From: Anaerolineaceae bacterium
Lineage (GTDB): Bacteria; Chloroflexota; Anaerolineae; Anaerolineales; Anaerolineaceae
NCBI GenBank assembly: GCA_016927865.1
Contig: JAFGLU010000087.1
Span: forward strand, 1-33,093
Direction: 5' to 3'
DNA length: 33,093 bases
Part shown: positions 3,360 through 32,398 of the stretch, in pieces
Layout: each line of letters starts with the position of its first letter
Numbering within the stretch: the first letter of the stretch is position 1
Program-made: the position numbers and the translations under genes
The notes under the pieces: model-generated
Seen by the model: the letters and a program-made list of their open reading frames with translations, nothing else
The model's database searches: none
What the model was told of the DNA's origin: nothing

Positions 3360-3374
3360 ATCGTTTGGTTGATT

Positions 3375-3422
3375 CCAAAAAGCATGAATGCGGCGCGAAA
3401 GCGCCGCATTCATGCTTTTTGG
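3375..3422 (+). terminator. Perfect 22-bp terminator hairpin with GAAA loop
   Basis: Arms 3375-3396 and 3401-3422 are exact complements around a GAAA tetraloop. The stem core is GC-rich (CGGCGC/GCGCCG) and its distal part ends in AAAAA/TTTTT, so it works as an intrinsic terminator in either direction. It closes the 2143-3359 transcription unit. Confidence 0.85.
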
Positions 3423-3454
3423 AAGGTAACTGCTCACCTAGAGGTGGAGGAGGC

Positions 3455-3509
3455 CCGATTTTGATGTGTTAGTGGGGTGCTTTGCACCCCACTAACACAT
3501 CAAAATCGG
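3455..3509. repeat. Hairpin-repeat family copy 1 (26-3-26)
   Basis: A perfect 26-bp stem (3455-3480 with 3484-3509) has a 3-nt loop TTT and the apex GGGGTGC/GCACCCC. Around it lies a larger imperfect inverted repeat running from TAAC at 3427 to GTTA at 3536, about 110 bp. The left 27 nt (3427-3453) match the left flank of copy 3 at about 21 of 27 positions with identical spacing to the stem. It is intergenic, between the 3375-3422 terminator and ada. Confidence 0.8.
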
Positions 3510-3631
3510 TAACTTTTCCCACCCTCAGGGCGGTTATTTTGGGAATCAAGTTTGAATTTGCTTTTCGGATAGTTTTCGTCCTGAGTATCCGGTATGATAG
3601 GCGAGTGATCATTTGGTGACAGAGGATAATA

Positions 3632-12664: not shown

Positions 12665-14077
12665 ATGACCATGACGCCTGCTTCATCCACTTATTTTAAA
12701 GAAAACGCTTCGCGCTGGGACCAACTGCGCACGGGTTACTTTGGCGAGGAGGTCCGCCGGACCGCCATTGCCAAGGCCTACCTGCGCCCTGAAATGGTCG
12801 TGGCCGATGTGGGCGCGGGAACGGGCTTTTTGTCGGCGGGGCTGGCCCCGCTGGTGCAGCGCGTTTACGTGGTGGACGGTTCGGCTGAGATGCTGGAGGT
12901 AGCCCGCCAGAACTTGGCCGGGCTGGACAACCTAGAATTTCATCACGCCGACGGCCTGAACCTACCCTTCCCCGAGGAAAGCCTGGACGCTGTTTTTGCC
13001 AACATGTACCTGCACCACACCCCCGATCCGCTGGCGGCGATCCGCGAGATGGTGCGGGTGCTGCGCCCGGGCGGGCGGCTGGTCATCACCGATATGGACG
13101 CGCATCCCTACGAATGGTTGAAAGAGGAGATGGCCGACACCTGGCTGGGCTTTGAGCGGACGCAGATGCGGGCCTGGTTTGCCGAGGCAGACCTGGTGAA
13201 TGTGCTGGTAGATTGCACGGGCGAATCTTGCTGCGCCGAATCGGCGAACCCATCCATCCATGATGCGCAGGGGCGGCTAGCAGAGATTAGCGTGTTTTTG
13301 GCGACGGGCACTCGGCGCATGGCGATGCGCGAGCAGGTGCAGGAGGAATATGCGGCCCACGCCCAGGCCGGTACCAGTTGTTGCGGTGATTCGAGCTGCT
13401 GCGGCGACTCGAGCTGTGCTTGCGGCAGTGACGCGGCTGTGGCGAACGGCTATGCGGTGGAGGATTTGCTGGCGGCTCCGGAAGATGCAGCCGGGCTCTC
13501 TCTGGGCTGCGGCAACCCCCTGGCGCTGGCCGGGCTCCAGCCGGGCGAGGTGGTAATGGATATTGGCAGCGGGGCGGGGCTGGATTCGTTCCTGGCGGCC
13601 AAAAAGGTTGGCGAGAGCGGCAAGGTGATTGGCGTGGACATGACCCCGGCCATGCTGGAGCGCGCCCGGGCAACCGCGGAACGGGCGGGCATTGCTAACG
13701 TGGAGTTCCGCCAGGGCTTTGCCGAAGCGCTGCCGGTGGAAGCGGGCACGGTGGATGTGGTCATTTCCAACTGCGTGATCAATTTGAGCGAAGACAAGGG
13801 GCGGGTGTTCCGCGAGGCGTTCCGGGTGCTCAAGCCGGGCGGACGGCTGGAGTTGAGCGACGTGGTGACCGGGGGGGCGCTGCCTTTTGAACTGCGCGAA
13901 AACTCGCAGGGTTGGGCTGAGTGCGTTACTGGGGCGCTGCCCGAGCAGGAGTACCTGGATTTGATCGAGCAGGCCGGTTTTGGGAAACCCATCCTCCGGC
14001 GCAGCCCAAGCATAGGCAGCGCGGCGGGGGTGGCTGTTTACAGCGCGATTGTGTCGGCGGTCAAGCCGGTTGAATGA
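12665..14077 (+). CDS. Two-domain SAM methyltransferase with ArsM-like C-terminal half
   Basis: A 470-residue protein with two class I methyltransferase domains. Domain 1 (about residues 1-215) has motif I VVADVGAGTGF around D48 and resembles UbiE-type enzymes. A linker follows at 216-260 with three six-residue repeats (SCCGDS, SCCGDS, SCACGS). Domain 2 (about 261-470) has SAM motif VMDIGSGAGLDS around D299. It also has the arsenite-binding cysteines of ArsM: C282 (GCGNP), C370 (ISNCVINLS) and C420 (WAECVTGAL), with the last two 50 residues apart as in known ArsM. The likely reaction is SAM-dependent methylation of As(III). The role of domain 1 is unknown. AAGGAG precedes the ATG, and the gene is probably co-transcribed with the repressor. 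Confidence 0.88.
   Translation: MTMTPASSTYFKENASRWDQLRTGYFGEEVRRTAIAKAYLRPEMVVADVGAGTGFLSAGLAPLVQRVYVVDGSAEMLEVARQNLAGLDNLEFHHADGLNLPFPEESLDAVFANMYLHHTPDPLAAIREMVRVLRPGGRLVITDMDAHPYEWLKEEMADTWLGFERTQMRAWFAEADLVNVLVDCTGESCCAESANPSIHDAQGRLAEISVFLATGTRRMAMREQVQEEYAAHAQAGTSCCGDSSCCGDSSCACGSDAAVANGYAVEDLLAAPEDAAGLSLGCGNPLALAGLQPGEVVMDIGSGAGLDSFLAAKKVGESGKVIGVDMTPAMLERARATAERAGIANVEFRQGFAEALPVEAGTVDVVISNCVINLSEDKGRVFREAFRVLKPGGRLELSDVVTGGALPFELRENSQGWAECVTGALPEQEYLDLIEQAGFGKPILRRSPSIGSAAGVAVYSAIVSAVKPVE
13376..13429 (+). repeat. Three tandem 18-nt units encoding a Cys-rich linker
   Basis: In-frame units at 13376-13393, 13394-13411 and 13412-13429 encode SCCGDS, SCCGDS and SCACGS. The near identity suggests local duplication that multiplied metalloid-binding thiols between the two methyltransferase domains. 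Confidence 0.8.
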
Positions 14078-14105
14078 GGGTTATTGCTCAAATAGTGTAG
14101 AAGGT

Positions 14106-14160
14106 TCTCAAATTAATAGTATGCGGGGTGCGAAGCACCCCGCATACTATTAATTTGAGA
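14106..14160. repeat. Hairpin-repeat family copy 2 (26-3-26)
   Basis: A perfect 26-bp stem (14106-14131 with 14135-14160), loop GAA, apex GGGGTGC/GCACCCC. It occupies the 85-bp gap between convergent genes: the left flank starts just after the methyltransferase stop (14077), and the right arm ends 2 bp before the last base of the minus-strand gene at 14163. The left flank (14081-14105) loosely matches those of copies 1 and 3. It may serve as a bidirectional terminator. Confidence 0.8.
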
Positions 14161-14162
14161 CT

Positions 14163-14756
14163 TTATTTGGTTGAGCGGTGGAACAACAGCGTGATCTGGC
14201 CGGCCAGGAAGATGGCCAGCAGGAGCAGCAGGACGAAGAAGATTTGGATGCGGGCGGAGCCGGATTGGAAGATGGGCGAGTCGGGGTGCAGGATGTTTTC
14301 GATGCCGCCCAACACCCACCACAGGGCCACGCCAAAGACCAGGTTGACCGCTGAAGCGATGAAGGGTTGGTTGAACAACCACAGCGCCACTTGAATGAGC
14401 AGGGCCGCCACCCCAAAGGCCAGCGGGATGCGCCAGCGGGGCTCGTCCCAAAAGATGCCGCCCCAGTTGACCTGCTGGACGACCAGGGACATGGGCAGGT
14501 AGGTGAGCCAAATGACCAACCCGGCGCGGCCCAGGGCCAGCGACCAGCCGGCCCACTTTTGTGAGCGGGCAAGCAGGGCGGCCAGGCCGGCCAGCGCGGC
14601 GCAGGCAAAAGCAATCTTCCCGGCCCACACCCACGCGCCGTGCAGGTAGACCAGGCGAATGCGTTCGCCGAGAGTCTTTTCCAGGGGGGCGAAGGCCGTC
14701 ACCAAAGCGATGGCAACCAGGGTACATGCGAAAATGAGCCATGACTTCCAGCGCAT
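14163..14756 (-). CDS. CcmC/CcsA-like membrane protein (divergent)
   Basis: A 197-residue protein with five or six membrane helices. Two features recall the heme-handling cytochrome c assembly proteins CcmC and CcsA: ERIRLVYLHGAWVWAGKIAF, comparable to the RIMYIHVPAAW segment, and NWGGIFWDEPRWRIPLAFG, which aligns with the tryptophan-rich WWD heme motif (WGxxWxWDxRLT). Both match only partly, so the protein is a diverged member or a convergent look-alike. AAGGAG precedes the ATG. It is the last gene of a three-gene unit with an Rrf2 regulator, which fits redox or nitrogen-oxide-linked heme chemistry. That fit is inference. Confidence 0.55.
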   Translation of the reverse strand: MRWKSWLIFACTLVAIALVTAFAPLEKTLGERIRLVYLHGAWVWAGKIAFACAALAGLAALLARSQKWAGWSLALGRAGLVIWLTYLPMSLVVQQVNWGGIFWDEPRWRIPLAFGVAALLIQVALWLFNQPFIASAVNLVFGVALWWVLGGIENILHPDSPIFQSGSARIQIFFVLLLLLAIFLAGQITLLFHRSTK

Positions 14757-17314: not shown

Positions 17315-17399
17315 GGAGGGATGGCCGAGCGGCCTAAGGCGCCTGTCTTGAAAACAGGTGTAGGGCAACCTACCGTGGGTTCGAATCCCACTCCCTCCG
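17315..17399 (+). tRNA. tRNA-Ser (anticodon UGA)
   Basis: The acceptor stem GGAGGGA pairs with TCCCTCC, and G73 is the discriminator as in serine tRNAs. The anticodon loop CTTGAAA gives UGA, and a long variable arm (GTGTAGGGCAACCTACC) is present as class II tRNAs require. The T-loop TTCGAAT is intact. CCA is not encoded. Confidence 0.96.
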
Positions 17400-17413: not shown

Positions 17414-17501
17414 GGGGAGGTGCCAGAGTGGCCGATTGGGCTCGCCTGCTAAGTGAGTGCTGGGGTTAACTCAGCCGCGGGTTCGAATCCCGCCCTCCCC
17501 G
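17414..17501 (+). tRNA. tRNA-Ser (anticodon GCU)
   Basis: The acceptor stem GGGGAGG pairs with CCTCCCC, with G discriminator. The anticodon stem CTCGC/GTGAG encloses CTGCTAA, giving GCU. It has a long variable arm and the T-loop TTCGAAT. It lies 14 nt after the UGA tRNA and is surely co-transcribed with it. CCA is not encoded. Confidence 0.96.
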
Positions 17502-26388: not shown

Positions 26389-26550
26389 GGTTCTCCCTCG
26401 AGTTTGAATTTCGGTTGACTACCCTGTTATTGTCCTTGCCTTTTGCGGTTTTGGCAAGTGATGGCTGTTATGCGCTTCCAATGCAAAACGCACTACTTAG
26501 CGAGAGGAGAAAACCTCCTCTTCCACCACTGGCTACGTAGTTTCAAAAAA

Positions 26551-29126: not shown

Positions 29127-29457
29127 ATGAAACCCCTTTTGCAGGAACCACGCTTTGATTTCATTCCCGACCAGGATAAAGCCTTCATGGTCGCTTTCAA
29201 TGACGAGATGGCCCGCCTGGGTTATGATTTTGGCAATAAAATCGGCGACGGATACTGCTGGGGCAAATATATGGTCATTTACACCCGTACGGGGGTGAAG
29301 AGTAAAAACGTCTACACCCGGCTGTATTTTCGCGATCCGCGCATCATCCTGCGGCTGTTTCTGAGCGGCATCGATGAGCACCGCGCCTTCCTTGAGGTCG
29401 CCCCCGCGCGCCCTGTTCACCGAGTTTCACCCGGATCGTCGTCGGAGAGTGATTTAG
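29127..29457 (+). pseudogene. Small conserved-type gene with a C-tract frameshift
   Basis: The frame opens MKPLLQEPRFDFIPDQDKAF and reads well to DEHRAFLEV (about residue 91). There a CCCCC run at 29401-29405 seems to shift the frame. With one base removed it would continue APRALFTEFHPDRRRRVI and stop at TAG 29455-29457. Read without correction, the frame runs on through the palindrome at 29446-29495 and out to 29522, adding GAIHELP-type repeat-encoded residues. This is either a real frameshift or a sequencing error. The protein type, with YCWGKYMVIYTRTGVKSK, is recognisable as a small uncharacterised family that is usually longer. Its middle cysteine-rich part is absent here. Confidence 0.6.
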
Positions 29458-29495
29458 TAGGGGCAATTCATGAATTGCCCCTACTAAATCACTCT
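29446..29495. repeat. RAYT-associated palindrome, upstream copy (50 bp perfect)
   Basis: Two 25-nt arms meet with no loop at 29470/29471 and are exact complements. The core is GTAGGGGCAATTCA followed by its complement, with flanking AGAGTGATTTA. It lies 14 bp before the first possible start of the RAYT gene and overlaps the corrected stop codon of the frameshifted gene. Confidence 0.85.
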
Positions 29496-29509: not shown

Positions 29510-30061
29510 ATGTTCCCAATGAAATACGACCCACAAAACTACCGCCGCCGTTCAATCCGTCTGCCCGGTTATGATTATTCCCAACCTGGCGCATATTTCG
29601 TCACGATCGTCACCTACAGACGCGAGGCCTTGTTTGGTGAAATTGTGCAAGACGAAATGCAGTTGAATGATGCCGGGCGCATCGTCTGGGATATATGGCA
29701 GTCCCTGCCAGAGCGGTATCCCCAGGTGCAATTGGGTGCGGCGGTGGTCATGCCCAATCATTTCCATGCGATTGTTGAAATTGTCGCTGCGGGGGCAATT
29801 CATGAATTGCCCCTACCCGAATTGTCCCAGCAAGAATCGCGCTTGAAGCGCCGCCGGATGACCATTCCGATGGTGGTTGGATATTTTAAAATGAACACAG
29901 CAAAACAGATCAACCTGTCGCTGGATTCGCCGGGTGTTCCCATCTGGCAGCGCAACTATTACGAGCACGTCATCGAGGATGATGAGGAATACCGGCGGAT
30001 TCACCTGTATATCGAAAGCAATCCATCCAATTGGTTGGAGGATGATGAGAATGCGTCATAG
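29510..30061 (+). CDS. REP-associated tyrosine transposase (RAYT, Y1/HUH family)
   Basis: A 183-residue single-strand DNA transposase related to IS200/IS605 TnpA. The start is at 29510 or 29519, neither with a clear ribosome binding site. The fold markers are in order: YRRRSIRLPGYDYSQPGAYFVTIVTY, the HUH metal site MPNHFHAIVE (H84, H86), and the C-terminal catalytic region WQRNYYEHVIEDDEEYRRI, where Y151 is the likely nucleophile, then YIESNPSNW. RAYTs cut and move REP-type hairpins in trans. Palindromes lie on both sides (29446-29495, 30084-30125). Residues 93-105 (AAGAIHELPLPEL) are encoded by another copy inserted in the gene, in a loop after the HUH strand. Confidence 0.92.
   Translation: MFPMKYDPQNYRRRSIRLPGYDYSQPGAYFVTIVTYRREALFGEIVQDEMQLNDAGRIVWDIWQSLPERYPQVQLGAAVVMPNHFHAIVEIVAAGAIHELPLPELSQQESRLKRRRMTIPMVVGYFKMNTAKQINLSLDSPGVPIWQRNYYEHVIEDDEEYRRIHLYIESNPSNWLEDDENAS
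29792..29813. repeat. RAYT-associated palindrome inside the transposase gene
   Basis: A perfect 22-bp palindrome GGGGCAATTCA joined to TGAATTGCCCC is in frame within the RAYT coding sequence and encodes the GAIHELP part. Only the core is present, without the outer GTA arms pairing. Confidence 0.85.
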
Positions 30062-30083
30062 GCGCACATCTGGTAAGGGTAAC

Positions 30084-30125
30084 TCATGTCGTAGGGGCAA
30101 TTCATGAATTGCTCCTACAACATGA
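30084..30125. repeat. RAYT-associated palindrome, downstream copy
   Basis: A near-perfect palindrome centred at 30104/30105 with the core GTAGGGGCAATTCA / TGAATTGCTCCTAC, one G-T pair and one C/A mismatch, extended by TCATGT/ACATGA. A further CATGAATTGC fragment follows at 30121-30130. With the copy at 29446-29495 it frames the transposase gene. Confidence 0.8.
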
Positions 30126-30159
30126 ATTGCTGCTCAAACCTTCTTGCGGAGTGTTATCC

Positions 30160-32133: not shown

Positions 32134-32261
32134 AAGCCTAAAAATCGCCCCCCTAATAATTTTTGGCTCGAGCTTAACCCAGCCCGAAACCATTAAAACT
32201 TGCTCAGGTGGATGAATTCCCGTAAAATTATCATAACTTCTCAATCAGAGGCGGAAGAGGT

Positions 32262-32316
32262 CTGAATTTGAGGTGTATACGGGGTGCTTTGCACCCCGTA
32301 TACACCTCAAATTCAG
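32262..32316. repeat. Hairpin-repeat family copy 3 (26-3-26)
   Basis: A perfect 26-bp stem (32262-32287 with 32291-32316), loop TTT, apex GGGGTGC/GCACCCC. The outer unit runs from TAAC at 32234 to GTTA at 32342, about 109 bp. Its left 27 nt (32234-32260) align with copy 1 at about 21 positions. It sits between the EEP gene and mrpA; the rest of 32134-32398 shows no gene. Confidence 0.8.
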
Positions 32317-32398
32317 GGTCTTTTCTACCTTCTCAGTAGTTACAAACGATCGATGACCGCCCGGGTGGGAAAAATTTTGGAGTGGGATTACTAAGCTG

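Follow-up and report, generated by a model that had tools for sequence, protein, structure and literature searches.

Three long hairpins in a stretch of DNA from an Anaerolineaceae bacterium (33,093 nt, hereafter the window; GCA_016927865.1, contig JAFGLU010000087.1, positions 1-33,093, forward strand) raise the question of how stems whose letters differ from copy to copy can all be perfectly paired. A preliminary description of the window had reported them as perfect hairpins of 26-3-26 geometry, and all three coordinates proved exact (Table 1); for a stretch of 33 kb, chance occurrence of even a single perfect 26-bp stem is arithmetically negligible (33093 x 4^-26). The source genome comprises 3,968,489 bases (3.97 Mb) in 147 contigs and is 84.5% complete. 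When it was searched for the apex, as had been recommended, the 17-letter pattern GGGGTGCNNNGCACCCC was found at 66 places and a reversed control pattern at none. Pairing extended outward from the apex at all 66 places, although at one of them the contig ends 8 letters further out. A sequence-only model built from 36 copies, R1, was run on the same genome, 150 of 1779 candidates being scored, and recognized at least 108 places, 99 of which were uncut by contig ends. R1 misses weak and very decayed copies, and copies far from the apex copies are under-represented because the model was built from the latter.

In the aligned copies an A end is followed by a 27-bp stem arm and a 3-nt loop, after which come the other arm and a B end. 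Terminal inverted repeats GTAACTRCTCAG are present at both ends of the element, the two ends being related but distinct (A, GTAACTACTCAGCCAGAGGTGGAAGAGG; B, GTAACTGCTCAGAGGGTGGGGAAAGTT, inverted), and the central hairpin has mostly 22-29 pairs and as a rule a 3-nt loop, typically ~27-3-27. The flank noticed earlier as common to copies 1 and 3 is real and corresponds to the A end, that is, to one terminal inverted repeat; the unit length of about 110 bp given for it is close to the measured ~112 bp. Direct repeats of 8 bp flanked the elements with an identity of 0.857, compared with 0.321 ± 0.030 after shuffling (34 of 56 copies, those with clear ends), and for other lengths the excess over the shuffle mean was at most 0.09 (5, 6, 9, 10 and 11 bp) or the identity was 0.391 versus 0.285 (7 bp). 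Such target duplications identify a transposed element and show that the family is mobile. The hairpins of the window are thus members of a non-autonomous transposon family of ~112 bp (MITE), with inverted ends, a fixed 8-bp duplication, short length (~112 bp), no transposase and many copies. The suspicion of a mobile repeat family was thereby borne out by about 100 copies and by the target duplications, and other parts of the preliminary description were modified. Its constant apex is indeed the most conserved part of the element, but was exact in only 50 of the 99 uncut R1 elements, a set obtained without demanding it. Its variable outer stems do differ in their letters between copies, but are not unrelated, having diverged from a single 27-bp stem, approximately CCYGAATTTGAGGTGTRTGTGGGGTGC. 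Recent insertion with newly made stems, one of the two origins that it had offered, did not hold, since the stems are homologous and many copies have eroded 8-bp duplications or ends while their arms are still paired.

Table 1. Elements, target duplications and hairpins of the family in the window
Feature	Position	Strand	Details
MITE copy 1, A end left, GTAACTGCTCACC...GGTTAT	3426-3537	+	R1 match 3426-3536, E 2.1e-26
Copy 1, left 8-bp target duplication TTTGGAAG	3418-3425		Partner TTTGGGAA at 3538-3545, match 6/8; family-wide 8-bp signal
Copy 1, perfect 26-3-26 hairpin, loop TTT	3455-3509		
MITE copy 2, two decayed ends, intact hairpin	14080-14187	-	Boundaries approximate; outside the 108 R1 places
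Copy 2, perfect 26-3-26 hairpin, loop GAA	14106-14160		
MITE copy 3, ATAACTTCTCAATC...CAGTAGTTAC	32233-32343	+	R1 match 32234-32343, E 8.7e-26
Copy 3, left 8-bp target duplication AAATTATC	32225-32232		Partner AAACGATC at 32344-32351, match 6/8
Copy 3, perfect 26-3-26 hairpin, loop TTT	32262-32316		

Shortened forms of the element were also observed. A hairpin-less relic with an A-like end (GAAACTACGTAGCCAGTGGTGGAAGAGG...) lies in the window at ~26480-26550 (-), and hairpin-less elements with A and B ends occur at C15:8479, C5:70617 and C69:3666 (contig:position in the source genome) and in the relative G005 (59 and 48 bp); all of these are probably deletion derivatives. Two 80-bp elements of G005 (L228 and L240) lack one arm plus the loop, in either direction. 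A half element without the second arm begins at C115:57691, and by inspection none of the ORFs listed around it reads as a transposase.

Pairing of the arms was assessed in the R1 set and in the apex-selected set. Of the 99 uncut R1 elements, 71 had a 3-nt loop and all 23 pairs intact, the proportion being 47/50 with the exact apex and 24/49 with another apex. Mismatches were clustered near the loop, with 31 cells at positions 1-6 (enlarged loops included) and 3 cells at positions 10-20. Among the apex-selected copies (65 of 66, the contig-cut one being left out), which carry 38 distinct outer 16-mers, 62 had none of 16 outer pairs broken; exchange of arms between copies of this set generated 4.88 mismatches per 16. 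The target duplication provides a clock for the time since insertion, because its two copies are identical when the element inserts. Applied to the 64 of 83 elements of at least 100 bp that had recognisable ends and duplications (copy 1 was among the 19 left out, its B end scoring 8/12), the clock gave mismatches at 86 of 512 duplication positions, a figure from which elements with more than 4/8 mismatches are excluded, so that the decay of duplications is lowered rather than raised. At that rate 161 mid-stem defects would be expected in 960 positions, and 9 were observed, showing that the arms remain complementary for as long as it takes the duplications to erode. The distance from each stem to the nearest other stem grew with duplication age, from a mean of 0.95 to 2.31 letters (rho 0.31, p 0.013), and the distance between the two arms of an element was flat (rho 0.10, p 0.43). 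Change of the stems with age was below the expectation for purely neutral copying, indicating that some conservation is present as well; divergence was about 0.12 in stems versus 0.22 in flanks (all 55 rows of the alignment described below). A mid-stem defect was found in 9 of 22 elements with a damaged apex and in 3 of 77 with an intact one, which fits a need to fold back but would also follow from loss of function. At C132:10739-10795 the apex is lost and some 6 letters of the B flank have joined the palindrome, as though the opposite side had been written from the flank.

To follow how letters change, 55 of the 66 apex copies were aligned by MAFFT without regard to structure (10 copies lacking 62 flank bases and C62:4880 were left out). 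Covariation was evident: two-sided changes occupied 134 cells, as against 24.7 ± 7.4 after shuffling and no more than 27 when partner columns were displaced by 1-3 positions, a count that is not a probability because the shuffles keep relatedness. These changes were spread over 18 of the 27 pairs, and 98.5% of cells were paired versus 89.2% in shuffles. Mismatches at positions 7-23 of the R1 set amounted to 11 of 1669 cells (read on the A-left strand, 5 G.T and 6 A.C), with no sign that wobble intermediates are favoured. The fraction of transitions was 0.64-0.65 in stems versus 0.63 in flanks (55 rows), or 0.56-0.57 versus 0.76 when restricted to the 36 rows with good flanks; transitions are not clearly in excess in stems. 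Insertions and deletions were matched as well, the same 2 letters being absent from both arms in 7 of 55 copies (an eighth is gapped there in one arm only), with one further copy having 2 additional letters in both arms and another lacking 1 in both. The loop, read relative to the A and B ends, was purine-rich in 44 and pyrimidine-rich in 43 of the 87 clear cases among 97 3-nt loops. The nearest relative by flank shared the loop orientation in 39.1 of 80 uncut elements, the null being 39.7 ± 4.3, and elements C102:30658 and C27:4847, whose flanks differ at 2 of 56 positions, have identical arms and opposite loops. The loop would thus appear, judging from these comparisons, to flip faster than flanks accumulate substitutions; its inversion may take place in situ or be coupled to transposition.

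Repeated rewriting of one arm from the other, the other origin offered in the preliminary description, is the reading best supported by pairing, clock, two-sided changes, loop inversion and the lack of wobble bias. On this sequence evidence we consider it likely that likeness of the arms is maintained in the DNA itself, either arm serving as the template for its partner; the simplest means would be template switching, presumably during replication. A polymerase would switch template within the hairpin: intramolecular switching would rewrite one arm, and intermolecular switching would rewrite an arm and also invert the loop. Mutations would be either erased or copied into both arms, letting the stem drift while it stays paired. 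With a closed GC-rich apex (GCGAAGC) the strand could fold back on itself, and damage to the apex would be followed by decay of the stem. Homogenisation of arms, inversion of the loop and matched changes, the main features of the family, would all follow from template switching. Template-switch mutations at inverted repeats occur in E. coli too. The family would then display a known mutational process at work on a MITE, one unusually strong and visible here. Template switching between inverted repeats has been reported to cause arm homogenisation and spacer inversion (PMC8604942), and it has been put forward as a way in which RNA hairpins arise and are maintained (PMC8794818). These reports share with our observations arm homogenisation, spacer inversion and multi-base matched changes; the passages cited deal with yeast genes and RNA genes, whereas here ~100 copies serve as replicates with a built-in clock. 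Both marks of a template-switch hotspot, homogenised arms and spacer inversion (44:43), are thus present, homogenisation being weaker in the relative G056.

R1 matches were found in 6 of 60 relatives (both strands counted: G001, 2; G005, 30; G041, 5; G043, 50; G049, 9; G056, at least 61), and the exact apex was not found in four genomes of the same genus. Apex matches in G130, G061 and G103 belong to another repeat, those in G322 and G088 are not long hairpins, and all of these were discarded as family members. Elements of G005 and G056 have the same ends and 8-bp duplications with other stems of about the same size; one such copy was found in G043. Their loops occur in both orientations (G005: GAA 6, TTC 2 and one GCA; G056: GCA 7, TGC 4). 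Hairpins were perfect in 8 of 10 cases in G005, and imperfect in 10 of 20 distinct hairpin-bearing elements of G056, 8 of these being among the 17 whose duplications still match at 7-8 of 8 positions. Defects in such young copies count against the copying reading and imply that correction is slow or weak in G056, reflecting either weak correction in that lineage or fresh mutations still uncorrected.

A different account of the pairing would be selection on RNA, the hairpins acting as bidirectional terminators or mRNA 3' ends whose pairs are kept by compensatory mutation. It would explain why stems are slower to change than flanks and why some hairpins survive beside unrecognisable flank, and it is favoured by the position of copy 2 between convergent ORFs (12665-14077, +, and 14163-14756, -). 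According to crude calls (longest non-overlapping ORFs), copies are placed in tandem (34), divergent (25) or convergent (23) gaps, within ORFs (15) or at an edge (2); convergent sites hold 23 of the 82 clear intergenic copies as compared with 39 of 217 background gaps, an enrichment indicating that some copies, such as copy 2, may serve as terminators. Divergent sites hold 25 of the 82 in the same crude calls. Their stems are perfect in 23 of 25 cases, matching convergent (17/23) and tandem copies (23/34), so that sites without need of a terminator are paired no worse. Selection on RNA is also hard to reconcile with G.T being no commoner than A.C, with transversion-type changes as frequent in stems as in flanks, with indels matched between arms and with free inversion of the loop. 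The hairpins are probably not mainly terminators; RNA-level selection as their keeper is unlikely, and template switching fits better. Copies within ORFs were the worst paired class (6/15 perfect by the same calls), which copying alone does not predict; broken hairpins may let false ORFs run through.

Selection could act instead on DNA, if some host protein or process needed a perfect cruciform or single-strand hairpin of any sequence. The preservation of pairing rather than sequence, and the different stems of about the same size in G005 and G056, would agree with this, yet two independent changes would be needed each time, the 50:50 loop inversion and matched indels would be left without a reason, and 10 of 20 G056 copies are imperfect; we regard it as quite improbable. 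There is little to commend a restriction of arm rewriting and loop inversion to the moment of transposition. In G056 and G005, copies that resemble one another in their stems and have intact duplications do show both loop orientations, but 13 elements with 3-4/8 duplication mismatches show just 6 defects in 13 x 23 cells, and young G056 copies already bear defects. Collapsed or mirrored repeats in the assembly might likewise mimic perfect arms, the genome being fragmented (147 contigs, with 9 of 108 places cut by contig ends). Such an artefact is scarcely credible, as palindromy ends at the stem base, each copy has its own stem, flanks and target duplications, and the same architecture recurs in four assemblies (the source genome, G005, G043 and G056).

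Similar hairpins were also found in other frames: between GGACTTACGCA ends in G056 and G043, and, in the source genome, between TTTGGGAAT-like and ACCTATCC-like flanks, TTTGGGAAT-type ends being present in G043 too. Arm similarity was scored between single representatives, typed by hand, and compared with shuffles. It reached 13.5 between F1 (the MITE of the source genome) and the GGACTTACGCA hairpin of G056 (shuffled -1.2 ± 2.4) and 13.0 between two G056 frames (-1.5 ± 2.5); it was weaker between F1 and F2 (6.0; -1.4 ± 2.4), and close to p 0.05 for F2 or F3 against the GTAAC hairpin of G056. Frames with similar arms span three genera, with GTAACTRCTCAG ends (source genome, G005, G056 and one in G043), GGACTTACGCA ends and TTTGGGAAT-type ends. 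It is conceivable, if doubtful, that the hairpin is a passenger which repairs itself and passes from one MITE frame to another, unrelated one, its pairing kept by copying and serving no function. Were this so, covariation, the usual proof of a functional RNA, would arise without any RNA selection; why unrelated MITEs have one kind of hairpin in common is a question that these frames raise. No perfect hairpin of at least 18 pairs was present in samples of G002 (184,593 bases) and G001 (66,156 bases), in which the density of the source genome (71 or more perfect F1 stems over 3.97 Mb) predicts about 4 or 5. This census is weak: 3 of the 4 hairpins in its source-genome sample are in locus L066, picked with two places already known, and without L066 that sample has 1 in 79,802 bases. 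Palindromes of another type, GTAGGGGCAATT, have differing and perfectly complementary outer arms at window 29446-29495, C65:14163, C26:12850 and L170:802; those at C26:12850 and L170:802 are within TTTGGGAAT-type MITE-like flanks, as though they had entered a hairpin apex or taken its place.

The linked nuclease or transposase that had been looked for did not emerge from a search aimed at IS66. IS66 elements have ends that begin with GTAA and generate 8-bp duplications; an IS66 helper within the source genome was rejected, as the IS66 transposase domain (Pfam PF03050) had no match in the 84.5%-complete source genome. The exact A-end pattern was not found in a scan of the genome collection, which may exclude the source genome, and no autonomous element was recognised by its ends among 30 end-pattern loci, several of them overlapping, in G005 and G056. 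End loci in these two genomes had a partner end within 120 bp or none in the 3-kb locus (L242-L252, even numbers, and L254; by a laxer match L254 is a 48-bp element). We assume that a helper transposase would act in trans. Concerning empty sites, the 500 bases after the G001 orthologue (64% identity) of the gene before copy 3 are element-free and unlike those of the window, and G004 and G002 have no element within 350 bases upstream of their Ada orthologues, where local gene order may differ. No orthologous stem pair was found, hence no single parent-descendant event was seen.

The family resembles IS-derived bacterial MITEs in its terminal inverted repeats, 8-bp duplications, length of ~110 bp and many copies, and adds to them a perfect hairpin at the centre, whose loop inverts freely. 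No title or abstract opening naming it was found among the open-licence PMC papers searched. Mobile hairpins that change while keeping their pairing are known as mitochondrial double-hairpin elements; these are organellar and of other anatomy. GTAG REPs, short palindromic repeats connected with RAYT, have been reported in Chloroflexi among other phyla (PMC3733652). Our elements differ from them in having no GTAG tag, and in their inverted ends, 8-bp duplications and length of 112 bp. Identity with GTAG REPs was discarded, as the tag is missing from the element ends and the RAYT-like ORF of the window is adjoined by other palindromes. With ~100 replicates, a clock of age in the target duplications and a marker of direction in the loop, the family constitutes a natural experiment in which textbook base-pair covariation is best explained by copying of DNA. 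If this is true, covariation scores in bacterial intergenic hairpins can point to RNA genes that do not exist, and genome sequence becomes a means of measuring how fast templates switch and loops invert.

Some features of the window deserve mention. Two neighbouring tRNA genes, at 17315-17399 and 17414-17501 (+), were its only Rfam matches above gathering score, the hairpins matching no Rfam family. The RAYT-like ORF, at 29510-30061 (+), has a weak match to Pfam Y1_Tnp that is above cutoff (E 2.2e-5), and is surrounded by GTAGGGGCAATTCATGAATTGCCCCTAC-type palindromes at 29446-29495, ~29790-29816 (within the ORF) and 30081-30128. A different, perfect 24-bp hairpin with loop GAAA and A/T tracts, terminator-like, occupies positions 3373-3424 and adjoins the left duplication of copy 1. 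Hairpins of this kind also neighbour copies at C23:75993, C65:11629, C98:15914 and C108:58340, an adjacency that suggests a target preference.
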